A stretch of 38,458 bases of DNA from Treponema sp. (GCA_031282065.1 JAITEL010000157.1:1-38458); one strand, 5' to 3'. Counted from the stretch's first letter, positions 1 to 34,232 are shown. Notes: generated from the letters alone by a model not told the origin. Translations and numbers: made by a program.

Positions 1-119
1 CTATTTTTACATGCCCTCGCTGCTTCGGTAACAGGGGAGTTACCTGTTTGAATTGTTTTTGGCTGAGTTCCATGTCTCCAGTATATCATATTTCATTAGT
101 GTGAACACGCCCTAGTACC

Positions 120-1874
120 TTATGCACGGCTTTCCCCGGCAAGACCCTTCGCCTTATCCATAAATTCCGCTATATGCAGGCTCGCAAGCCTCACCTCATG
201 CACCTGTTCCCGTACCTCATGGGAAATTCCCTTCAAGGATTCCACCTCCTTGTGGATCTCCCCGCTCCCCCGGTTTATCGCCCCGGTTCCTTCCCTCACC
301 TGCTCGGTCATCTCCTGAATGACCGTTAAGCCCTGCAGAATCTGACCGCCTCCTGCGGCCTGTTCAGTCACCGCATTATGGATGACGCCAAAGGAGGCGT
401 TCATGGTATTTATCTCCTTGAAAATGGTATCCATAGTTTGCAGGGTTTCCCGGGAAACCCCGCTTATCTGGTTAATGGCTTTCTCCATGGCGGTGATCTC
501 TGTGTATATCGCGGTGGACTCCTTACTGGACAGTTCCGCCAGCTTGCGGATCTCCCCGGCAACCACCGCAAAGCCCTTGCCGGACTCCCCGGCATGGGCG
601 GCCTCTATGGCGGCGTTCATGGCCAGAATGTTGGTTTGAGCCGCGATATTGGCAATGGTCTGGTTCGCGTTCTGCAGGGCTGCGGACCGGCTCTGGATTA
701 CGGCTAATTCCTCGGAGAGCCGGGACAGGAGCTTATGCCCTGCTTCAGAGGAGGTACTTAACACCGCGGTGGTTTCCCCGGCGCGGGTTGCCACGGAACG
801 GATAGAGCCGATATTGGCGACCATTTGTTCTATGGCGGCAGAGGACTGACTAATGTGTTCTGTCTGGGTTTGGACCGCCTGGTTGAGGGACTGGATAGAG
901 GCAATGATGTTTTCGACCGAGGCGGCGGTCTGCTGAACCGATTGAAGCTGGGAATCCGCCTTGGTCTGAACGGTCTGCATGGAGCCGTTGATCACCTCCA
1001 GGGCTTCGGATGACTGGTTGACGATGGTGTGGAGGGCTTTGCCGGTGTTGGTCATTTTCAAGAGGTGGGACTGGAGGCTGTCTATGGCCTTATGCAGGCT
1101 GTCCCGGATATGGACGAGGGAACGCTGCATGAGCCCCAGTTCGTCATTCCGTAAGCGGGATATGACCACATCGAAATTGAGCTCTGCCAGGGAACCGGCG
1201 ATGTGTTCCACTTCTCGTATCGGCTTGATGAAAGAGGCAGAAACGATAAAAGCAATAAGGCCTGCGACAAGAATCACCATGATCATGGCTAACACAAAGG
1301 CAATGAGGGCGCGTTGTTCCAGGGCTTTGATGAAGGAGATATCATAATCCAGTCCCAAAACCCCGACGGTAAGCCCGTTTTTGACAATAGGGGAGAACAT
1401 CGATACCAGCGTACCAAACTCGTTAACGACCGGCTTCTTAGTTATCTGCTTGATTTGAGTTTGGTATGCTATGCCCGCCTCCGAACCTATTTCGTCAATA
1501 GCATAGAGCGGGCTAAGCAAGCTGGCAGGGTCTTCAGGAGTCGCATCGGTATCCAACAAAAACTGTAATTGATCGCCGACCAGCTGCATATAATAAATAT
1601 AGGTCATATCGAAAGCATTCCGTACCTTGTCCAACTCACCGGTTAATGCCCAAAACTCATCCGAAGACGCCGCTGCTTCCCGCGCAAGATAGGCAGGATC
1701 CGCTAAGACCGGGTATTGGGTCTCGATCAGAGCTGCCACCCGCTTCAGCGTATCTTGGTAGGTCTCTTTGATGTACCTGCCGTATTGGATATACATTATT
1801 ATCCCCATTCCCAAAGCCGCCGCGACACTTAACCCGACAAAAACCAAAAAAAACTGCGTTTTAAGACTCTTCAT
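120..1874 (-). CDS. Methyl-accepting chemotaxis protein
   Basis: A 584-residue transmembrane chemoreceptor. A first membrane helix lies at about residues 8-28, an extracytoplasmic sensory region at about 29-188, a second helix at about 190-213, then a HAMP linker and a long coiled-coil signalling domain. The highly conserved receptor tip that contacts CheA and CheW is visible as the motif [18 protein letters not shown] followed by [13 protein letters not shown]. The ligand region looks like a single Cache-type fold (it contains [12 protein letters not shown] before TM2), but the ligand cannot be read from sequence. A Shine-Dalgarno AAGGA lies 8 bases before the start. It starts 4 bases after the stop of the upstream sensor/MFS fusion, so the two are almost certainly co-transcribed. 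No C-terminal CheR-binding pentapeptide is seen. Confidence 0.95.
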
Positions 1875-1878
1875 ACGA

Positions 1879-4800
1879 TCATTCCTTTATCTTTATTCCT
1901 TTTACCGGTACCCGAGAAAGAACCATAAACCCTATAAGGCACAGCACCGCGCTCAAGGAAAAGAGCTGCATCCCCCGGCTGATGTTAGGAGCGCTTGCTA
2001 TGAAACTGAAAACCAAGGGGCCTAGGCCCAGACCCAGATTCTCGACTACCGCGTATACACTCAAGGCAGTGGCAGGGGAAACAGAGCCATCCTCCTTATA
2101 TAAGGCAGCATAATAGGTTTGGATATTCGTCATCGCGAAGATACTAGCCACCGCCAATATTCCTATGGTGAGCACCAGCATAGGGACCGTCATCCTCAGG
2201 GAAAACAGGCAGATAGCCCCCGCGTTGAGGAACAGGGAACCAAACACTATCCCCTTGACCGGAATCTTATGGGAAACATACGCGCATAAACTGGTACCAC
2301 AGAGAATTGTAAACAAACCGTTGAGAAGCATCAACTGCCCTATATTGGATTCCTGGAGCCCCTGTCCGCTTCCATAGAGGGGCATGAAATAGGAAACAAA
2401 GCTCATGGAGGCCATATAGGGCAAGGCCAGTAAGCCTAAGGTTCCCAGAACCGCGGGCCTCAAGAGAAAGTGAAGCAGCCTCCGGGGAGTTCCCCGGTTT
2501 TTTTCAGGGTCTTCTTTTTTCACCGGGATAGCCTCATAGATATGGGTTAGCAGCTTAGAACGGCTTGAAAAGACCGTGATGGCCAGGAGCAAGGCGGCAA
2601 CCAGGGAAGCACAGAGATAGACCATACGGTAGGAGAAGAACTCCGCCACCATAGAACCGAAGACCACCCCTATGTTTATCCCCGCCAGATAGGAAGCATT
2701 AGAGTGAGCAAAACCCTGGTTCACCTCTTCCAGGCTTTTTTGCGCGGCGATGATCGTATTGCTCACCAGCACTATGGTACCGGTGGAAAAACCGATCAGC
2801 CCATGGGCAAGGCCTAAATAGAGGATGTTCGGGGCGCTAAAAGATAGGACCTGGCCCATACAGATACCCAGGGCGCCCAGGAGACAGAGCCGTTTAAGGC
2901 CGAACCTGTCTATGATACCGGGAACCACCAGAAAGGCCAGGATAATGAAAATGATGTCTGCGGTAAAGGGCAGGGTAAGCACAAAGGCTTGAGGCAGCTT
3001 GAAAACAGGCCGGTACAAGGCAGCCGCATAGAGAGGCAGGGTGGCGCTCTCCAGATTATTGGCCGTAAACATAAAGAAGAGTATGCCCCGCAGCAGCTCA
3101 GGATGGAACACCGGGGCCCGGTGTTCCCGGTATTCGGCTTTATTGGCTTGGAATGCCTCCCCTATGAGAATACACTCCAGCATGATAAAGAAGAGGGCAA
3201 TCGCGGTGGCCGCAACCATGAGGACCATCTGGATGAGCATGCTCCGGGTCTGCTCGTTAAACCGCGCTCTGTCATAGCCCGTTTCTATCAATCCCAGGAT
3301 GTTCTTTTCTGCATCGAATAGGGGGCCGCAGACAAACAACCAGGTTCCCCCGCCCTCGGCACTGGGAGCAAGCCTATGGATATAGGTACGGGTTTTAAAC
3401 ACTTCCTGGTAATACGCTGCTTTGTTCCCGACGGGGTACCAGGTACCCCGGCTGTATTCCGTATCATAGACCGAATAGAGGCCGCCCTCCTGAAACCTCC
3501 AGAGGCATTGATACACGTACTTTCCCTTCCATTGAAACTGGGTGAACAAGGTTCGCAGACCCCGGTCTAAACGCCGGTAGGCTTCGCTCTCAAAATCCCC
3601 GGCAGAGGAAATCGAAATCAGGGTCTGGAGGTCCACGGACCCTGCGCTGAGCCGGGATATGTTTTCCAGGTCCAGGAAGGTGTTTTCATTATACTGGCGG
3701 TGCATGTAGTGGATCAGGAGGCTCGCCGCAATCCCCCCGCCCAGGACCACCCCTATTCCTGAAAGGAGGCTTATCTTCAAGGCAAAACTCAGCTGCTTTC
3801 GGGCCACATAGCGGATGCTCAGGAAGCCCAGGTAGAGCCCAAGCAGCAGGGCCGCCAGGGCAAGGACAAAGAGGCTTATCCGTTTGAACCTGTCCCCGGA
3901 GGAATAGCGGTACTCCTCCAGGATCTCCCAGCCCCCCCGGGGTGTTTTAATGAGCAGATGATCTGCCCTTGCGGCAAAAAGGCTTTCGTTCCGGTAATTC
4001 AGCGCCGTATAGGGTGCGGTTCCCGGAAGCGCCCGCTGTAAGCTTGTATCCCCGGCGGTATCAATAAGCAGGATTTCCCCCCGTGCCATATCCGTGTATA
4101 TGAGCCTATGGCTGTCATCGGATATAGCCATCCAGGGAAACCGGAACGGTTCCGTTGGCCATGCACGGATAAAGTCCCCTGAGAAGCCGTACTGTTTCAG
4201 GGTTCCTCCTTTGGTAACCGTGCTAAGCCGGCGGCTTGCAGGATTGATATGGAAATACCGGAGATCCCGGAAGGCCTGGGGATAGTCAAAAAAGGCGATT
4301 ACTTCCCTCCGAGCTAATTCAGATTTCCCCTGAGTTAATTCAGGTTCCTCCTGAGCTAATTCAGATTTCCCCTGAGCTAATTCAAATACCTCCTGAGCTA
4401 ATTCAAATACCTCCTGAGCTAATTCAGGTTCCTCCTGAGCTAATTCAGGTTCCTCCTGAGCTAATTCAGGTTCCTCCTGAGCTAATTCAAATACCTCCTG
4501 AGCTAATTCAGATTTCCCCTGAGCTAATTCAGGTTCCTCCTGAGCTAATTCAAATACCTCCTGAGCTAATTCAAATACCTCCTGAGCTAATTCAAATACC
4601 TCCTGAGACCGGGGGAAATCCCCGGCTTGCTCAGGCGGTTCCAGGAATACCCGTTCAAGCCAAAACCCCCGGTCTCCCAGGCGAACCACATAGAGGCTGC
4701 CCTCATAGACCGTCATAGCGCTGATTTTGCCCTTGGTGATGATAAAATCCTCGTTGGTATAGCGATAGGCGTAGAGTTCTGCTATGAAGGCGCCGTCGGG

Positions 4801-5172
4801 AGAGTATTTCAGGATCCGTTCAACATTCTCTTCAAAGGCGCCCCGGAACTGCGCATCCAGGACATAGAGGTTATTCTGTTCGTCCAGTTCTACCCGTTCC
4901 GCTCGGTAAAATGAACGGGGGCTATGGGGTTTTCCCTGGACTTGGCAGAGCAGCTTCTTTTCAGGGGATAAGACCGTAAGGGTTTGGGCGTTATTTTCAA
5001 TGACGGCGATCCGCTGGGAGTTGCCGCTTCCCCAGGAAGGCCCCCGGAGTCTGGCCCTGGTATCCCAGGGCCAGAGGGTGAGGGAATCTTTATGGAACCA
5101 TAGGAATGCCCCCAGTGCTGCAAAGATAATGGCGAGTATCAAAACACGGTTTGCCATTCCTTTGTTTGTCAT
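1879..5172 (-). CDS. Propeller/sensor/MFS-transporter fusion membrane protein
   Basis: A 1097-residue multidomain membrane protein. Order: N-terminal membrane anchor (about 8-25); an extracytoplasmic region (about 40-425) with repeated strand patterns such as [13 protein letters not shown] and [11 protein letters not shown] that resemble NHL/YWTD beta-propeller blades; an inserted run of fourteen 7-residue ELAQ repeats (about 190-287); two helices at about 432-451 and 468-487; a Cache-like sensory segment (about 490-640, with [15 protein letters not shown] at its end); a helix at about 645-667; then a C-terminal 12-helix major facilitator domain (about 690-1090). MFS proteins are normally about 400 residues, so the sensory half is an addition. 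The start overlaps the stop of the DUF2156 gene by 4 bases and an MCP follows after 4 bases, which points to a sensory role beside transport. Substrate unknown. The propeller assignment is by pattern only. Confidence 0.85.
4311..4604 (-). repeat. 21-bp in-frame minisatellite, 14 units
   Basis: Fourteen perfect-length 21-bp units lie head to tail inside the sensor/MFS fusion gene and encode 7-residue units ending in ELAQ. Three unit versions occur: EVF-ELAQ (6 copies), EEP-ELAQ (5) and GKS-ELAQ (3), mixed in no simple order. Because 21 is a multiple of three, gain or loss of units would change protein length without a frameshift. In 11 of the 14 units the sense strand contains AGGAGG. The repeat sits within the propeller-like domain, probably as a surface loop. 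Confidence 0.97.
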
Positions 5173-6164
5173 AGGCTTTGCTTACCGGCCTTGGTGAAGG
5201 TGCACAGGTACTTCCGCCACAGTTCATGGGCGCTCAGATGGGATTTGAATTGACGAAGCCCGCTATTCCCCATATCATCGTTTATATCCATATATTCGGC
5301 ATCGGTTATATACCTGCTAAACATCGTGTAAATGAGATACACAAACAGACCCGGTATGATGCCTTTCCCGAAATACAGAAAAGCAACTTCGGTGTTTCCT
5401 TTTTCGCATATAATATACCCCGCAGGAATGCCCTCATAATAGCAAAGAAGCCCTTTTTGAACACGCTCGTCGAAAAGAGACACCATAATTCCCAGGGCTT
5501 TTTTTTCGCATCCGCAGAAGGATTCACAATACTCACAGTCTTGCGCCTTGCACCACTGCTTTTCTATTTCAAGGCAAAGATGAACATTCGCTTTTGTCAG
5601 GGGATGCAGGGAAACAGAAGGGTTATCCAAAAAATTCTTTAGGCGTTTCCGTTTATAGTAATTAATGGATCCCGATAATTCAAGCAGATCCTTTGTCCTA
5701 TACACGTAGGCACTGTTCTTTTCTTTGTATTCGACTTGTATATCATAGCCATTGATGGCTTTATATTCCTTAAGGAAGCGGTCTTCCACCGCAAAGACCC
5801 TTAAAGCAGGCAGTCCTATACTCCTGACTAAATCGTACAATCTATCAACGATTTGCTGGAGCGAATATGCAACACTGCCCTGAGGCCGGTGAATAATAAA
5901 ATAGACCGGGCTATCCCTAAAGAAATATACACTACATAGATACCCGCTTATAATTTTATAGAGCCCGTTAAATTCAATGGACCAGGATGCAATGATCGCC
6001 GCGCTCCGTTCCTGCAATCTGCTGTCTTGCTCGTATCCTTTAAATATCGGATAACTGGCTTGGTCTGCCGGTACAAAGCCTTGTTGTTGGAAAAAATCAT
6101 ATACTTTGATGAATTGTTCGTTTATAGTATTTCGCCGCTTCACCAGGGATGTCAACGCTTCCAT
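5169..6164 (-). CDS. DUF2156 (GNAT-fold, lysyltransferase-C-like) protein
   Basis: A 331-residue soluble protein of the DUF2156 family, which shares the double GNAT fold of phosphatidylglycerol lysyltransferase C-terminal domains. The diagnostic pieces are YYKRKRLKNFL in the middle, the HPLTKANVHLCLEIEKQWC segment, and the C-terminal MDINDDMGNSGLRQFK, equivalent to the family's N-x-D-D-x-G-x-x-G-L-R-x-x-K signature. A cluster of five cysteines (CKAQDCEYCESFCGC, about residues 207-221) is unusual and could bind metal. The start is supported by AAAGGAG 8 bases upstream. It is the first gene of the operon with the sensor/MFS fusion (ATGA overlap) and the MCP. The acyl donor and acceptor are unknown; a lipid or protein aminoacyl transfer is only possible by analogy. 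Confidence 0.85.
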   Translation of the reverse strand: MEALTSLVKRRNTINEQFIKVYDFFQQQGFVPADQASYPIFKGYEQDSRLQERSAAIIASWSIEFNGLYKIISGYLCSVYFFRDSPVYFIIHRPQGSVAYSLQQIVDRLYDLVRSIGLPALRVFAVEDRFLKEYKAINGYDIQVEYKEKNSAYVYRTKDLLELSGSINYYKRKRLKNFLDNPSVSLHPLTKANVHLCLEIEKQWCKAQDCEYCESFCGCEKKALGIMVSLFDERVQKGLLCYYEGIPAGYIICEKGNTEVAFLYFGKGIIPGLFVYLIYTMFSRYITDAEYMDINDDMGNSGLRQFKSHLSAHELWRKYLCTFTKAGKQSL

Positions 6165-6942
6165 GAATAACTCCTTTTTTGCATAGTAAAAATATACGAC
6201 ATAATATTAAGAGGCAACTGCCCAGTAAGGCCCGGCTGGGTAATTCCTACCAAGGTCTCACCCCCATTTCTTACCGGTCTATGCAGTGAGTACTTCCCGG
6301 CAATTTCCAAGAGCCTCGCGACGGCCGACTGCTCCCCGGAGACTCCCATCTCCCGGAGTTTCCGGGCGGCTTGCTCCTTTTCTTTATCGCTTCCTCCGCC
6401 TTCCTTATTAGCCTCTCATAACCTATCACTTTGATCTCTTCCCATCTCACTAAACTCTTTATAGCCCCCATAGATCTCCCCCTGCAACTGCATGGTCATT
6501 CGTAAGACATTCTCCCCGTCCCTATCACCTCCTCCATAAGCCCTCCCAATCGCCTTCTGCACCTCATGGCGATACTTTAGCATATAAAAGGGTAGTAATA
6601 ACCCCAAATCCCCCTCTTCCAGCATCCTTACACTATACTCGGGAAACTTGAAACTCGGTACCTCATAGAGATGTTCTCTCCCTCCAGGAAACTCAAACTA
6701 TCCGCCAAGGAACGTTTCAGATGAGCATTCACTGTTTCCGTCCCCCGGACGAGTAACACTGCTGTCCGCGGGATAGTGAGTACCGATTCCTTTGAATCAG
6801 ACCCACGAGTATACCGACTGGACACCTTTCTCAAGATATTTAAGGATAAATAATGGGGAGGGGGGGAGTACATGAAGACGAAACACAGACGTCTAGATAG
6901 ACTGACATAAGCATTTTCCTTTATAATTTGAAGTTGTTTCAA
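6152..6942 (-). pseudogene. Broken Rpn/PD-(D/E)XK transposase-type nuclease fragment
   Basis: Three reading-frame pieces on the minus strand line up as the C-terminal two thirds of an Rpn-type (YhgA-like, PD-(D/E)XK) protein. The first piece runs from 6942 and contains SVLTIPRTAVLLVRGTETVN and GENISMRYRV. At about 6655-6660 a one-base frameshift moves the message into the frame reading PSFKFPEYSVRMLEEG and then LGLLLPFYMLKYRHEVQKA. In that frame a TGA at 6416-6418 interrupts the text, which continues in the same frame as EANKEGGGSDKEKEQAARK and LREMGVSGEQSAVARLLEI. The N-terminal catalytic part is missing. The family name comes from recall of the LLLPFY-type motif; the frameshift and nonsense codon are read directly. 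Confidence 0.65.
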
Positions 6943-8667: not shown

Positions 8668-10911
8668 TCATGCATGTCGTGCAAAGGGCGAAGCACTTTG
8701 GCTTTGCTTGTACAAACCTTCCTGTACTCTTCCCTTCTTTCCTTTGATTCCCATCTGCTCGCGAATTTCCGCGTATTCCTCAAGGATGTACTTTTCCGCC
8801 CATGCTTGGTCGGCGATTTTTTCCACACGACAGGCGGCGTACTTGTATTCTGGGGTGTTGCTCACCGGGTCCAGGGAGGCCTGGGTCAACTCGTTGCACG
8901 CACCTATCCACCACTGATAGGTCATATAGAGTGCACCTCGTTTTACACGTTCGGTAGGCAGGCAGCGCGTTATACAGTAACCGCGTTTGGAGATTACTTT
9001 GATCAGTTCGCCCTTATGGAGGCCGAGCGCCTGGCAATCCTCAATGCTCATCTGCGCCCAGCCGGGTTCATCCTCAAGGTTACGCAGCAGGCGGCAGTTG
9101 CCCGTCATTGTACGCACCGAGTAATGGCCGACCTCCCGCACGGTGGAAAATACCATGGGGTACTGGTCATTTTCGAGTTCTTTTGGCGGACGCCAGTCCG
9201 TTCCGTAGAACTTCGCCCTTCCGTCCGGGTGGGCAAACTTGCCGCCCTTATGGAGGTACGGCGTTCCCCTATCGGTCATGGCCTTGTCCCTGCACGGCCA
9301 TTGCACGCTGCCTAATTTTTCGATTTTCTCATAGGTAGCTCCGGCAAATCCCGGACACAGATCAATGAGCTCGCTCCAGATTTCCTCGGTATTGTTATAG
9401 TGCATGGGGTAGCCCATAGCCGTGGAAATGGCGCAGAGGATTTCCCAGTCGGTCTTCACATCGCCTTGGGGCTCAATGAGCTTGCGTATGCGCTGAAAAC
9501 CACGGTCACAGGAAGAATAGACCCCTTCATGCTCGCACCACCCCGTCGCGGGGAGGAGAACATCCGCGTGGCGACCGGTCTTGTTCATAAAAATATCCTG
9601 CATCACGACGAAATCGCATTTGTCCAGAGCTTCCCTCACCTCGGCAAGGTCGGGATCCGACTGTGCGGGGTCCTCTCCGAATATGTAGTAGGCGTGAATC
9701 CGTTTCGCCGGATCCTGTTCGTGCAGCACCCGGTGCGGCACATGGGTAATGGGACAGCCGATCTCCCCGGGCAGTTTTTCAACGCCCCAGGCCTTTTCAA
9801 ACTTTTCCCGTATGATCGGGTCGGTAACGCTCTGGTATCCGGGGAAACAGTTCGGCAGCGCGCCCATATCGCAGGCACCCTGCACATTGTTCTGTCCCCG
9901 CACCGGGCCTATACCCATAGAGGGTCCCCCGAAGTTGCCGGTCATAATGGCAAGGTTGGCAAGTCCCTTGACCACATCCACCGCCTGGGCAAACTGACAG
10001 ACTCCCATGCCGTAGAGTATCATAGAACAGCCTGAAGTCGCGTACATCCGGGCGGCCTTGCGTATGTCCTCTGCGGGAACCTGGGTTATTCCCTGCGCGT
10101 ATTCCGGTGTGTACTTTGCCACGATGGGCACGAGCTCGTCGAAACCGCTGGCGTGCTGATCAATAAATTCTTTATTGATCAGATTTTCATTGATGATGAC
10201 ATTGGCAATGGCATTCACCAGCGCGAGATTCGATCCGTTTTTGAGCTGAAGATGCATATCCGCAATGCGGGCGGTCTCAATCCTGCGGGGATCCACACAG
10301 ATGATCTTCGCCCCTTTTTCTTTGGCACGGACTATCCTGCGCGCAACAATAGGATGAGAATCCGCTCCGTTATAGCCAAAAATGAAGAGAAGTTTAGCGT
10401 CCTCGATTTCCGGGACACCCATGGACATTGCGCCTGAACCAAGCGAAAACTGTAGACCCGCTACAGAAGGCGCGTGTCATATACGTGCGCAGTGGTCAAC
10501 ATTATTCGTGCCAATACATGCACGCATGAATTTCTGCATGATGTAGTTGGCTTCGTTGCCCGCACCGCGCGCCGAACCCGTCCCCATAATGGCGTTGGGG
10601 CCGTACTTTTCCTTTATATCGCTCAGACGATGGGCCACATAGGAAATGGCCTCGTCCCATTCGACCTCTTCAAAGACGCTGCTCCTGCCGCCTTTGCGGA
10701 TCATCGGCTTTTTAAGACGCTTGGTAAGGATCTGCGGATCATTAAGGTAATCCCAGCCATACCAGCCCTTGAGACATAGCGTCCCCTCATTGGTGCGGCC
10801 GTTTGCCGGCGCGGCTTCCAGAATCTTGTTCTGTTCGGTGTCTACCGTGAACAGGATCTGACATCCCGCACCGCAATATGCACAGGTACTCTGAATCTTT
10901 TTTGTTGACAT
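8668..10911 (-). CDS. fdhF: Selenocysteine formate dehydrogenase H (FdhF)
   Basis: Molybdopterin formate dehydrogenase of 747 residues when UGA at 10477-10479 is read as selenocysteine (residue 145). The Sec context is VDHCARI-Sec-HAPSVAGL, matching E. coli FdhF Sec140-His141. The N-terminus carries the [4Fe-4S] ligands Cys10, Cys13, Cys17 and Cys46 and the conserved Lys48 of CLKG. Later parts include GANKEG-like cofactor segments (PVRGQNNVQGACDMG) and the C-terminal molydopterin-dinucleotide-binding domain. Without readthrough the product would stop at 144 residues and leave a 586-residue orphan. Start supported by GAAGGAG; a strong promoter and a terminator frame it as a single-gene unit. 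It oxidises formate or, in acetogenic treponemes, reduces CO2 with hydrogen in a hydrogenase complex; no hydrogenase gene is in the window. Odd: its termination codon is also UGA, followed at once by in-frame UAG. Confidence 0.96.
10450..10466 (-). promoter_or_regulatory. Bacterial SECIS hairpin
   Basis: On the mRNA, a perfect 6-bp stem CUGUAG/CUACAG encloses the loop CGGGU and begins 10 bases after the in-frame UGA. Distance, apical size and the GGU-containing loop match the bacterial SECIS element bound by SelB in fdhF of E. coli. Confidence 0.85.
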
Positions 10912-15360: not shown

Positions 15361-15377
15361 GCTTAAGGTCGTGCCTG

Positions 15378-15478
15378 CGTCGTGCCGCGACGTAAGGCAG
15401 CGTCGTGCCGCGATGTAAGGCAGCGTCGTGATGCAACGCAGGGCAGCGTCGTGATGCGACGTAAGGCAGCGTCCTGAT
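15378..15478. repeat. 23-bp tandem repeat cluster, copy A
   Basis: Four imperfect 23-bp units begin at 15378, 15401, 15424 and 15447, with a partial fifth from 15470. Each unit opens with CGTCGTG, has CGACG or a variant about ten bases on, and ends in AAGGCAG or AGGGCAG. The CGTCG...CGACG part is palindromic, so each unit can form a small hairpin. A related cluster is at 34151-34232. It lies between kdgK-like stop and a bidirectional terminator. Confidence 0.9.
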
Positions 15479-28291: not shown

Positions 28292-29650
28292 TTACTCCTT
28301 ACCAGAATTAGCTTTTATATACAAAAATGCAGAGATAGGATCTCTCCCCATAGATGTCCACGTATCCCCAGACAATAGCTCATTTTTTCCAAGAATAATG
28401 ATCCCTTTATCTTTCAGTTTTTCAGAGCAATCCGCGAGTAAACGTTCTTGACTGTCTAGCGAAAAGAAAGAAAAAATATCCCTGGCCAGAATAATATTTA
28501 AATCCGGCAAGGAATTATTATTCAAAACATCATGGTATTCAAACACAATTGAATCCTTGATAACTTGATTAAAAGTATACCCATTACGTCCTTTAACCAT
28601 GAAACTACGGCAATATTCCGGCATTTTGTCTAGATCAAAGGTCATATTAGGTGCATCTGCTATGGCCATGATATCATTATCATTGGCCCAGATTTTTATG
28701 TGCCCATTCGGATACCGTAATCTCAGTATACAAGCAAACGAAAAAGTTTCATACCCCTTTCCACACCCCAGTTCCCAGACCTGGATATTACTGGAATTCA
28801 TATCCGGCAGAATTTCTTTGACCTGGGCGGCATAGGCATCGCTCCAAAACTCACCGGTATAGGGAGAATAAAAATCCGCCAGATACTCCTCAGCCTCTGA
28901 GTCATTCTTAAACTGCAAATCCGCATCAGTACGAGTGCTACTCCATTCGACAAATTGTTTGCGAAACCATTCGTCGTTAATGGGGCTGACATAAAACTGC
29001 TTCAATGCAGCAAGACTTTCTTTTATGAACCCAAGGGTCGTGTCCGATATAGCAGCCAGCCCTTCCCGGGATTGCTCTGGGGTAGAAGCTGGAGGTACAT
29101 AGTAGCTATCCCCAGGAACCTCCTGAATAGCGGTTCGCGGCTTCTGCTTCTCCTCTTCTTTTTGACTAAACATCCGCATGACATCAAGAATGACATAGAG
29201 ATATCCCTGCTTTTCCACGACTCCGGTGATGAATTTGATATTGACTTCTCCAAACATAGGATGAGGCGGCTGAATAGTCTCAGAATTGATACCCACCACC
29301 TTGTCTATCTTATCAACAATGGCACCATACACCCGATCATCAAGATGCAGGATGAGCATGTTTTCCTGACCATCGACCCGGCGCTCGCTTTTCATGTGAA
29401 AGAAGACTCGGAGGTCAATGATGGGAATAATATCCCCTCGAAGGTTATACACCCCCCTCACAAAGGAGACCGCATTAGGCACATAGGTAAACTTATCTGC
29501 CTTGGCAATCTCCTTAACATTCATAATATCCACTCCATAATCTTTACCCGCCAGGGAAAAGGTTACCATCTTAAAATCAACTGTATCGACTCGTTCTTTC
29601 TGTTGCTGCAACTCGGCGTTTACCGTTGCTAAGTCTTTAATCACCGCCAT
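28292..29650 (-). CDS. cheW: CheW-CheR fusion chemotaxis protein
   Basis: A 452-residue protein joining a CheW coupling domain (about 22-165; FSLAGKDYGVDIMNVKEIAK, GVYNLRGDIIPIIDLRVFF) to a CheR-like methyltransferase domain (about 205-448; WELGCGKGYETFSFACIL as the SAM motif, LPDLNIILARDIFSFFSL). This long CheW is the normal form in treponemes. The CheW part links receptors to CheA; the CheR-like part may methylate receptors or act as a scaffold, and the NVLIYF-type core of CheR is altered here (ILARDIFSFF), so catalysis is not certain. Start supported by GAGG. It lies 11 bases after cheA and 5 before cheX. Confidence 0.93.
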   Translation of the reverse strand: MAVIKDLATVNAELQQQKERVDTVDFKMVTFSLAGKDYGVDIMNVKEIAKADKFTYVPNAVSFVRGVYNLRGDIIPIIDLRVFFHMKSERRVDGQENMLILHLDDRVYGAIVDKIDKVVGINSETIQPPHPMFGEVNIKFITGVVEKQGYLYVILDVMRMFSQKEEEKQKPRTAIQEVPGDSYYVPPASTPEQSREGLAAISDTTLGFIKESLAALKQFYVSPINDEWFRKQFVEWSSTRTDADLQFKNDSEAEEYLADFYSPYTGEFWSDAYAAQVKEILPDMNSSNIQVWELGCGKGYETFSFACILRLRYPNGHIKIWANDNDIMAIADAPNMTFDLDKMPEYCRSFMVKGRNGYTFNQVIKDSIVFEYHDVLNNNSLPDLNIILARDIFSFFSLDSQERLLADCSEKLKDKGIIILGKNELLSGDTWTSMGRDPISAFLYIKANSGKE

Positions 29651-29661
29651 AGTTTTCCTCG

Positions 29662-32061
29662 CTACCGTATTGATGCTTCACGGATTTGACGTTGTTCCAA
29701 TTCCTTGCGAAGACCCAGCTCCAAGAGCTGACTCACGTCAATAATAAGAGAAACCGATCCATCCCCCAGGATCGATGCGCCTGCAATGCCTGGAGAATTG
29801 GTGTACTGATCCCGCAGCGGCTTAATCACCACGTCCTCCTCACCAATGAGGCTATCTACCATGAAGCCCATCTTCTTTTCAGCGCTTCCCACAATAACAA
29901 TGAAGTTATACTCCTGCTGTTTCTCGGTCTTTATCCCAAAAAGCCGGTTAAGCCGGAGCAGAGAAACTACGTCATTGCGGATGTTGAAAACCTCATAGTT
30001 GTCAATCTTCCGGATCTCTTCCGTCTTGATCCGTAGGCTCTCGATAACCGAGGTAATGGGGATGGAGTAGATTTCAGAACCAACCCGCACCAGCAGACCC
30101 TGAATAATCGCCAAGGTAAGGGGCAGTTTAATGATGAATTTGGTCCCCTTTCCCCGTTCAGAACTGACCGTAACCGTACCGTTGAGCTTTTCAATCTGCC
30201 GGCGGACCACGTCAAGGCCCACCCCCCGGCCTGAGATGGAGGTAATGCTCTTAGCCGTGGAGAAGCCCGGCTCAAAAATCAAGTTAAATGCCTCTATATC
30301 GGTCAAGACCTTGTTCGGATGGATGAGTCCCCGCTCAATGGCTTTAGCCTTGACCGCCTCCACATCAATACCCTTACCATCATCACCGATCTCAATGATG
30401 ATCATGTTACCTTCATTGGTCGCCTTGAGGAGCACCATTCCCTCTTCGGGCTTGCCCGCGGCTTTGCGCTCTTCCTGGGATTCAATGCCGTGATCCACCG
30501 AATTGCGAACCGAGTGCATGATGGGATCCAAGAGGTCTTCAATAACCGATTTATCCAGTTCTGTTTCTTCCCCTTCCACCACGAGGTTTATCTTCTTGTT
30601 AAGGCTCTTGGAAAGGTCTCGTACCAAACGGGGGAAGCGTCCGAAGATCTGACTAATCGGTACCATGCGGATCCGCATGACCCCTTCCTGGAGCTCACCG
30701 GTGATACGCCCCAGATTCTGAGAGGTGGAACGGAATTTACCGACATTACTCTTCACCGAGGCTTCAAAGCCATCAAAAAGGGAGAAGATATCCCCGTATT
30801 GCTCGCCAATCTCTTTGCGTATGTCCTTGATAGAACGACCGCCTTGGATGCTTTCCAGATACCCAGGCAGGCTATCAAAGAGGCTTTTAATTTTATCCCG
30901 ATAGGTGGCTTCCAAGGCATGAAGATCATTGACCAGGTCACTAAACTGATTACTTATTTGATTAAAGGTCGCCTTGGTGATAACGGTTTCAGAAACCAGA
31001 TTAAGCAGGTCGTCAATCCGCTTGGAGTCAACCCGCAGTATAGAACCCGCCTCTTTTCCGGCTTTTTTGGCATCTGCCGCTTCTTTGGCAGTCCCGGCCT
31101 TGGCCCCGCTTCCGTACTCCTCCCCTTGAGCTGGAGCAGCCTTGGAAGCCGTCACCGCTGGAGCAGCTTTGGGAACCGCTGCACCTGGAGATGCAGCCTT
31201 AACCGGTTCTGCTTTGGATGGGGCTCCCTCAGGAACGGAAATCACTCCTATTATATCGTTTATATTGACAATATCTGCCCCAATACTCACGTCAGGAATC
31301 ATCACATGCCGCTTTAACTCATCAATGCTCTTACGGCTGGATATATAATAGTCCACTACCGGGAAGAAATTATCTTCATAGAGCTGCTCGAAATCCGGGG
31401 AGGTTTTCAGTATCGTACCGTCTTCTTTGAGAGATGCGTATATTTGGATACCTCCCACGGTATTCATCAGCCCGCTTTCATCAAATTGCACGGAAATCCG
31501 ATAAATCGGCACCCCGCTCTCCCCAGATTCCTTGAGCTCCAGTAAATCGTACTCTGAAAGCCCTCCCACGGCTTTGACTGCGACCACTGCTCGTACAGGA
31601 GGCGAGGGTGGAGATCCCACCGCAGGAACAGCCGCGGACTTGGAGGCTTTTTTACGACCCGATCCTTCAGGCAACAAGACGGAAAGACGTCCCTCTATGG
31701 CAGAGGTATCCGCGGTGTATACGGAACCGTCCATACGCTGGGTAATCATTGCCTTGATGATATCAATAGCCGCTAGAAGGGTATCAACCACATCCTCATT
31801 TATGGTGACGGCATCGGAACGAATAGCATCCAATACATCCTCAACCAGATGGGTAAAATGGGACAGTTCCATCATTTCTACGGTAGCCGCTCCCCCTTTC
31901 AGGGTATGAGCTGCTCGGAAAATCTCATCCACCGCATCTCGGTTTCCACCCTCATTTTCAAGAACGAGAATATTCTGTTCTAGGGTATCAACTTGCATTT
32001 GGGCTTCACTGAAAAAGTCCTTAAGCAATTCTTCGTTATTGGGATCTAGATAGTCACTCAT
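29662..32061 (-). CDS. cheA: Chemotaxis histidine kinase CheA
   Basis: A 799-residue receptor-coupled histidine kinase. The HPt domain starts the protein, with the phosphorylated histidine at residue 52 in FRAAHTLKGGAATVE. A long Ala/Pro-rich linker with a P2-like region follows, then the dimerisation helices, the ATPase domain (MHSVRNSVDHGIE as N box, IEIGDDGKGID as G1, GFSTAKSITSISGRGVGLDV as F and G2 boxes) and the C-terminal CheW-like domain ending near LLELGLRKELEQRQ. It is the first gene of the che operon. There is no Shine-Dalgarno before its ATG; a good promoter lies so close that the message would be leaderless. Confidence 0.97.
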   Translation of the reverse strand: MSDYLDPNNEELLKDFFSEAQMQVDTLEQNILVLENEGGNRDAVDEIFRAAHTLKGGAATVEMMELSHFTHLVEDVLDAIRSDAVTINEDVVDTLLAAIDIIKAMITQRMDGSVYTADTSAIEGRLSVLLPEGSGRKKASKSAAVPAVGSPPSPPVRAVVAVKAVGGLSEYDLLELKESGESGVPIYRISVQFDESGLMNTVGGIQIYASLKEDGTILKTSPDFEQLYEDNFFPVVDYYISSRKSIDELKRHVMIPDVSIGADIVNINDIIGVISVPEGAPSKAEPVKAASPGAAVPKAAPAVTASKAAPAQGEEYGSGAKAGTAKEAADAKKAGKEAGSILRVDSKRIDDLLNLVSETVITKATFNQISNQFSDLVNDLHALEATYRDKIKSLFDSLPGYLESIQGGRSIKDIRKEIGEQYGDIFSLFDGFEASVKSNVGKFRSTSQNLGRITGELQEGVMRIRMVPISQIFGRFPRLVRDLSKSLNKKINLVVEGEETELDKSVIEDLLDPIMHSVRNSVDHGIESQEERKAAGKPEEGMVLLKATNEGNMIIIEIGDDGKGIDVEAVKAKAIERGLIHPNKVLTDIEAFNLIFEPGFSTAKSITSISGRGVGLDVVRRQIEKLNGTVTVSSERGKGTKFIIKLPLTLAIIQGLLVRVGSEIYSIPITSVIESLRIKTEEIRKIDNYEVFNIRNDVVSLLRLNRLFGIKTEKQQEYNFIVIVGSAEKKMGFMVDSLIGEEDVVIKPLRDQYTNSPGIAGASILGDGSVSLIIDVSQLLELGLRKELEQRQIREASIR

Positions 32062-34028: not shown

Positions 34029-34150
34029 CAGGCTCAGTCTAGCATAGTACCCTAAAGCATGAGAAGTAGGCAGTATGTATATGGGAAGCCGAAAGGCTCC
34101 CAAGCCCCCGGCTGTGCGCCCTGAGCAGCGTAAGCTAAGGCGCCTCCCTG

Positions 34151-34232
34151 CGTCGAGACACGACGCAGGGCAGCGTCGAGGCACGACGTAAGGCGACGTT
34201 GCGATGCGACGTAAGGCAGCGTCGAGGCGCGG
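34151..34232. repeat. 23-bp tandem repeat cluster, copy B
   Basis: Three 23-bp units begin at 34151, 34174 and 34197, with a partial fourth from 34220. They share the pattern CGTCGAG or CGTTGCG, then CGACG, then AAGGCAG or close variants, with the cluster at 15378-15478. It lies between the HU/DUF4469 gene and the RNase gene, which are on the same strand. Confidence 0.9.

Follow-up and report, generated by a model that had tools for sequence, protein, structure and literature searches.

The window, that is the whole stretch of DNA analysed (38,458 nucleotides), is an entire contig from the 2.65-Mb assembly of a Treponema sp. Its kin genomes are, by name, Treponema/Spirochaetaceae metagenomes and apparently come from termite guts, the host being read from isolate codes and lineage. 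Close to one end of the contig, three minus-strand genes encode a DUF2156 enzyme, a long protein joining a propeller, a sensor and a transporter, and a chemoreceptor. The 4-base overlap (ATGA) between the DUF2156 and fusion ORFs and the 4-base gap between the fusion and the chemoreceptor are exactly those claimed in the initial annotation of this DNA. The features are as follows:

99..114, minus strand: end of an insertion-sequence-like element present in many copies, just past the 3' end of the MCP gene (16-mer count)
120..1874, minus strand: methyl-accepting chemotaxis protein (MCP), 584 aa, with a Cache-like sensor, a sub-threshold HAMP and MCPsignal (Pfam and adjacent orthologues)
1879..5172, minus strand: propeller-Cache-MFS fusion protein, 1097 aa
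1903..3108, minus strand: 12-TM MFS domain, residues ~689-1090, motif A degenerate (Pfam, motif/charge analysis)
3271..3630, minus strand: single Cache-type sensor, residues ~515-634, between TM helices 463-510 and 636-683
3907..4305, minus strand: NHL-type beta-propeller, second part, residues ~290-422 (AlphaFold, Foldseek)
4306..4607, minus strand: 21-bp x 14.4 in-frame minisatellite coding heptads, residues ~187-289 (TRF)
4633..5058, minus strand: NHL-type beta-propeller, first part, residues ~39-180, after TM helix 4-26 (AlphaFold strands, Foldseek, HMM)
5169..6164, minus strand: LPG_synthase_C/DUF2156 double-GNAT-family protein, 331 aa, first gene (Pfam, PDB 2hqy profile, orthologue in genome G009)
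5508..5552, minus strand: four-cysteine cluster C205-x4-C210-x2-C213-x5-C219 (homologue alignment)
6299..6697, minus strand: decayed copy of an element gene (314 aa when intact), upstream of the operon (tblastn)

The 16-mer at 99-114 occurs 22 times genome-wide, and most copies sit about 100 bp from the end of a contig. A repeated insertion element seems to end here and to have interrupted the assembly, which would explain why the contig stops near the MCP gene. On contig C21 a second propeller-sensor gene starts behind the same 16-mer. On the other side of the operon, the remnant at 6299-6697 shows 46% identity (tblastn, E 1.4e-25) to a gene of genome G003 (L034:8478-9422). This unclassified 314-aa element gene, intact in G003, repeatedly flanks the module and is found degraded at L035:860-1120 and 8827-8907. 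Elsewhere in the window, positions 8668-10911 (-) encode a formate dehydrogenase-like protein with one in-frame TGA at codon 145 (context ARI-U-HAPS); it is probably a selenoprotein that mechanical ORF calling divided into two. A related 23-bp repeat (GCGTCG..GACGTAAGGCA) forms two arrays, at 15377-15478 and 34150-34226, that seem to be intergenic. A CheA gene and then a CheW-CheR fusion gene occupy 28292-32061 (-), about 26 kb from the MCP.

The fusion protein is organized as a TM helix, an NHL-type propeller, two TM helices, a single Cache, a further TM helix and a 12-TM MFS. An AlphaFold model of residues 1-688, built on 23 homologues (mean pLDDT 81), places TM helices at 4-26 and 425-458, propeller strands at 39-176 and 289-422, a TM helix with stalk at 463-510, the Cache/PAS fold at 515-634 and another TM helix at 636-683, with the MFS thereafter. 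The structure prediction that the initial annotation had called for returned both the propeller and the PAS/Cache fold that it had suspected. NHL propellers rank first in Foldseek (E 2.6e-9, probability 1.00), the propeller profile matches the NHL domain of TRIM2 (HMM, E 8e-7), and the fold match to solved NHL domains assigns the domain to the NHL beta-propellers. The sensor, modelled as a PAS/Cache fold between TM helices, is a single Cache (sCache). Taken alone, it matches the Cache-type sensors of WalK, KinD and Tlp proteins in Foldseek, Tlp3-leucine among them. The Pfam profile sCache_3_2 gives a weak match in 12 of 21 homologues and none in the window's own sequence.

The propeller is split by the minisatellite. 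The length of 1097 residues given initially was confirmed, with the correction that about 105 of them are tandem repeat (TRF). The encoded heptads are predicted helical with low confidence (AlphaFold) and match, by composition, designed coiled coils in the PDB. Such an insert is found in none of the other eleven aligned fusions, and an exact search with the repeat core found it nowhere else in the window's own genome or in ten other genomes of the genus. The insert therefore appears to be a young, species-level feature. Its copy number, taken from a metagenome assembly, is uncertain. Changes in copy number would preserve the reading frame.

A full MFS domain, as first proposed, is recognized above the curated cut-off across about 12 TM segments (MFS_1, PF07690, residues 700-1052, E 1.9e-19, 70.3 bits vs a cut-off of 33.4, near the full profile). 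Within the fusion it is conserved best, with 63% mean column identity against 41% in the N-terminal half, and it is therefore under selection. As to its subtype, comparison with PDB profiles gave no significant match, the best being a triacylglyceride transporter entry (E 0.14), and the MFS_1 sub-matches are, weakly, drug-efflux models. Examination of motif A, also proposed initially, gave a divided answer. The motif is near-canonical in the window (compared with G-x-x-x-D-R/K-x-G-R/K-R/K) but degenerate across its relatives: the acidic position is D in the window only and E, N, G, K, Q or P in the others. Motif A is degraded in other Spirochaetota families too. Moreover, the MFS domains of the termite-spirochaete family have zero conserved charged residues in the predicted TM cores, a result that is indicative since the TM limits derive from hydropathy averaging. 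N805, Q811, N943 and Q946 are invariant or near-invariant in the window's family, while the same four positions are R, E, D and R in most other sampled families, with the exception of family f3 and a few single sequences. That the family's MFS has lost these conserved membrane charges speaks against its being coupled to protons or sodium and suggests a receptor, a facilitator or a flippase rather than an ion-coupled pump. The idea of a dead MFS used as a receptor, raised in the initial annotation, is thus favoured by motif A and the charge loss, but an uncoupled transporter fits as well; together these features lean towards a "transporter-like sensor" or an uncoupled transporter.

The DUF2156 protein matches the LPG_synthase_C/DUF2156 Pfam profile (E 1e-14, 54.8 bits vs a cut-off of 27.5) and PDB 2hqy (profile match, E 1.5e-23), and retains the G-L-R-x-x-K motif. 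Its orthologue in G009 is 80% identical. The initial description as a double-GNAT DUF2156 protein with a Cys cluster holds: cysteines 205, 210, 213 and 219 are invariant in 43 of 43 aligned module homologues, including the orphan triplets described below. The window's protein has five cysteines in the cluster, four of them the invariant ones. The four-Cys cluster is missing from the DUF2156 paralogue of the same genome and, as read from the sequences, from the DUF2156 of family f39, and 2hqy has just W-C-x4-C in this region. The cluster is a possible metal or Fe-S site. DUF2156 family members are known to aminoacylate lipids, using aminoacyl-tRNA (PMC9437257). None of the MprF structures matched the protein by profile comparison, and membership of MprF was rejected, the 331-aa protein having neither an N-terminal flippase nor any other Pfam domain. 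Since it is nearer to the uncharacterised Bacteroides protein 2hqy than to MprF structures, lipid aminoacylation is no more than a candidate activity. Four loci (L093, L095, L096 and L098) carry tandem triplets of four-Cys-type DUF2156 genes with no sensor-MFS nearby, and the neighbours of these orphan triplets include no consistent partner.

Relatives were sought in 200 genomes of the family and 393 of the phylum. A scan of genome contigs with the single protein gave no matches, and relatives were recovered by an alignment-based scan. A full-length or near full-length fusion is encoded by 21 of the 200 family genomes. The possibility that sensor and MFS are joined by a sequencing error, named at the outset as a refutation, was rejected on the strength of these 21 genomes with intact full-length fusions. 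A four-Cys DUF2156 is present in all 21 and in 12 of the 179 others (Fisher p 2.6e-20, phylogeny ignored). It adjoins the fusion wherever the contig shows the neighbourhood; every informative locus has between one and three DUF2156 genes upstream of the fusion (L078 has a fragment only). Co-occurrence of the three genes, which the initial annotation had put up for checking, is therefore upheld for fusion and DUF2156 (21/21), while the MCP neighbour is lineage-specific. In a pairwise comparison of the window with G009 (L035:3960-6923 for the fusion), dS is about 0.35 for the fusion, 0.75 for DUF2156 and 0.94 for the MCP, with dN/dS of 0.37, 0.15 and 0.19 respectively. The low dS of the fusion relative to its neighbours possibly reflects recombination or a crude estimate.

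Most family loci include a 914-948-aa class III cyclase directly upstream of the DUF2156-fusion pair. This cyclase carries its own propeller, Cache sensor and HAMP, and its sensor is homologous to that of the fusion (hhalign E 5.7e-19). In one locus (L080) cyclase and DUF2156 lie within a single ORF and in another (L065) two ectodomains precede one MFS. No propeller-Cache class III cyclase was found in the window's genus, and two fusion genomes (G067 and G171) have neither the cyclase nor an adjacent MCP. Four loci have a gene of the NhaC transporter family next to DUF2156 or to the cyclase. Ddl was considered as a regular module member and rejected: one f1 locus and three related sensor-MFS loci are too few. 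In another family, L051:1606-16069 (-) groups genes for Ddl-like ATP-grasp, double-sensor MFS, ABC_sub_bind, alanine-racemase-like and cNMP-binding transporter-like proteins; next to this cluster are two propeller-sensor ORFs, one or both of which encode a cyclase.

The third gene encodes an MCP according to its MCPsignal domain (E 1.6e-26), its HAMP scoring 21.1 bits, under the 25-bit cut-off. Its sensor resembles that of the fusion (hhalign E 6.6e-5, probability 64%). An orthologous MCP lies directly downstream of the fusion in the window and in G009 and G003, all of the window's genus, with a gap of 4 bases in the window and about 8-12 in the two others. It also lies beside decayed fusion remnants in G010 and G013, the decayed-fusion case reaching a third genus. 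In G208 (L068), of a different genus, the orthologue is directly upstream of DUF2156, in reversed order. The MCP orthologue is adjacent in four fusion genomes without a full cyclase. A different MCP of about 700 aa follows the fusion in L072 and L080, where the cyclase is also kept. We read the MCP as an alternative signalling output replacing or joining the cyclase. Just past the MCP in the genus lies a second propeller-Cache protein (L033:569-2797, L035:9315-11468), with a C-terminal tail of ~130 residues in place of the MFS; it has no Pfam match.

Propeller-Cache-MFS ORFs were also recovered by profile search in several other Spirochaetota families. The gene order is cyclase, fusion, DUF2156 in f39 and fusion, cyclase, formyltransferase in f51, f27, f11 and f12, while in f3 the fusion is followed by a SpoIIE phosphatase. 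Shorter sensor-MFS proteins without a propeller adjoin dCache-SpoIIE proteins. The recurrent logic is a sensor-MFS together with a signalling enzyme bearing a similar sensor and, usually, a group-transfer enzyme. Elsewhere the signalling place is filled by a class III cyclase, by a SpoIIE phosphatase or by another MCP; the window's MCP is a lineage-specific part, and the chemotaxis link is not the core of the system. The transporter-to-chemotaxis link proposed in the initial annotation thus survives as a repeated adjacency of orthologous MCPs, but not as a general property, other outputs being used elsewhere. That no described system has this set of genes was borne out: a search of the open literature, most subscription papers lying outside its coverage, found no account of the architecture. 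It is very probable that fusion, DUF2156 and an exchangeable signalling receptor form a module, apparently an undescribed spirochaete module with a swappable signalling output (cyclase, SpoIIE phosphatase or MCP).

As to the function of the module as a whole, we can only infer. The propeller-Cache ectodomain would bind an extracytoplasmic ligand and so set the conformation of the MFS, which would be a ligand-controlled, probably not ion-coupled, facilitator or flippase. Its cargo would be a compound that DUF2156 makes or modifies in the cytoplasm (an aminoacylated lipid or small molecule), or a precursor. The receptor encoded alongside has a sensor of the same kind and would report the same or a related cue, in the window's genus to the chemotaxis array. 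We prefer this mechanism tentatively, judging it somewhat less than evenly probable. The cargo role is attributed to the DUF2156 product through guilt by association and is weakened because other families have a formyltransferase or no such enzyme. The formyltransferase of sister families would be another tailoring step and, taken with DUF2156, would fit modification of an exported molecule. Further points go against the mechanism: DUF2156 triplets exist without any fusion, G067 and G171 have the fusion with neither partner receptor, and the charge loss of the MFS fits a non-transporting receptor equally well.

In such a receptor the MFS would no longer transport and would be a binding and signalling body passing its state to the MCP or cyclase, in the manner of CbrA-type or UhpC-type transporter sensors. 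Degenerate motif A and the replacement of conserved TM-core charges by the amides N805, Q811, N943 and Q946 agree with this, the invariant N/Q network could bind a ligand, and the partner is always or usually a signalling protein. A precedent exists in CbrA, where an SLC5 transporter is joined to a kinase (PMC8871633). Against it stand the conservation of the MFS, the highest in the fusion, its lack of any signalling output, the fact that such charges may be absent from MFS uniporters and flippases too, and TM limits estimated from hydropathy only; we regard a non-transporting receptor as somewhat unlikely. The ectodomain type, mounted on both MFS and cyclase or else paired with a phosphatase or chemoreceptor, also allows a related scheme, rather unlikely in our view, of an undescribed class of signalling system in Spirochaetota in which the sensor-MFS, possibly non-transporting, and its signalling partner are one membrane complex reading the product of the co-encoded aminoacyl- or formyl-transferase, for example a self-made signal.

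Cache domains commonly bind amino acids and carboxylates. The MFS might accordingly import a nutrient (an amino acid or small peptide) that is also sensed by the Cache and reported by the MCP or cyclase, with DUF2156 using or modifying the import. The Tlp3-leucine match of the sensor and the NhaC-family neighbours are compatible with such sensor-controlled uptake, but conserved coupling residues are absent in the window's family and the MFS_1 sub-matches point, weakly, to drug efflux, making it doubtful. It is more doubtful still that only DUF2156 and the fusion are one unit, the MCP being a chance neighbour and chemotaxis unrelated. MCPs are certainly common (27 MCP domains above the cut-off in this genome), most relatives have none at the locus, and MCPs with this sensor occur widely in the family at sites apart from the fusion. 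However, the gaps are tight, the orthologue recurs upstream of the DUF2156-fusion pair in G208 and beside remnants in G010 and G013, and in L072 and L080 the fusion is followed by an unrelated MCP. Since adjacency recurs in separate lineages, chance placement is improbable, although a single chance case is conceivable.

Among known systems, CbrA offers the closest working analogy and MprF the closest biochemical one. CbrA/CrbS-type SLC5-fused histidine kinases likewise join a secondary-transporter body to signalling parts, and whether transport itself signals is open there as well (PMC8871633). There, the transporter is the input on a kinase output within the same protein; here the sensor is the input, the MFS stands in the output's place and the signalling enzyme is encoded by a separate adjacent gene. 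By Pfam the fusion lacks a kinase domain, which separates it from the CbrA type. MprF, a bifunctional lipid aminoacyl synthase and flippase, similarly couples a DUF2156/LPG_synthase_C enzyme to a multi-TM protein, but in a single polypeptide, whereas here the genes are separate, the partner is a sensor-bearing MFS rather than a flippase domain and the enzyme has an additional four-Cys cluster. Cache-HAMP-class III cyclases, Cache-SpoIIE proteins and Cache-MCP receptors share the type of extracytoplasmic sensor with TM flanks; their output is cytoplasmic, while the fusion has a 12-TM MFS instead, plus a propeller. Eukaryotic nutrient transceptors and UhpC are MFS proteins used as sensors, but without the separate ectodomain sensor or the co-encoded transferase that are both present here.

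If true, this would be a natural example of a receptor in which a transporter has taken the place of the output domain, with the output of the partner switched between cyclase, phosphatase and chemoreceptor inside a single phylum. Whether an extracytoplasmic sensor can gate an MFS becomes a testable question. Related genes occur in better-assembled spirochaete genomes beyond the termite-gut family, which may include cultured species. The module gives a functional context to the four-Cys subfamily of DUF2156 and to sensory genes in the bacteria that dominate termite guts.
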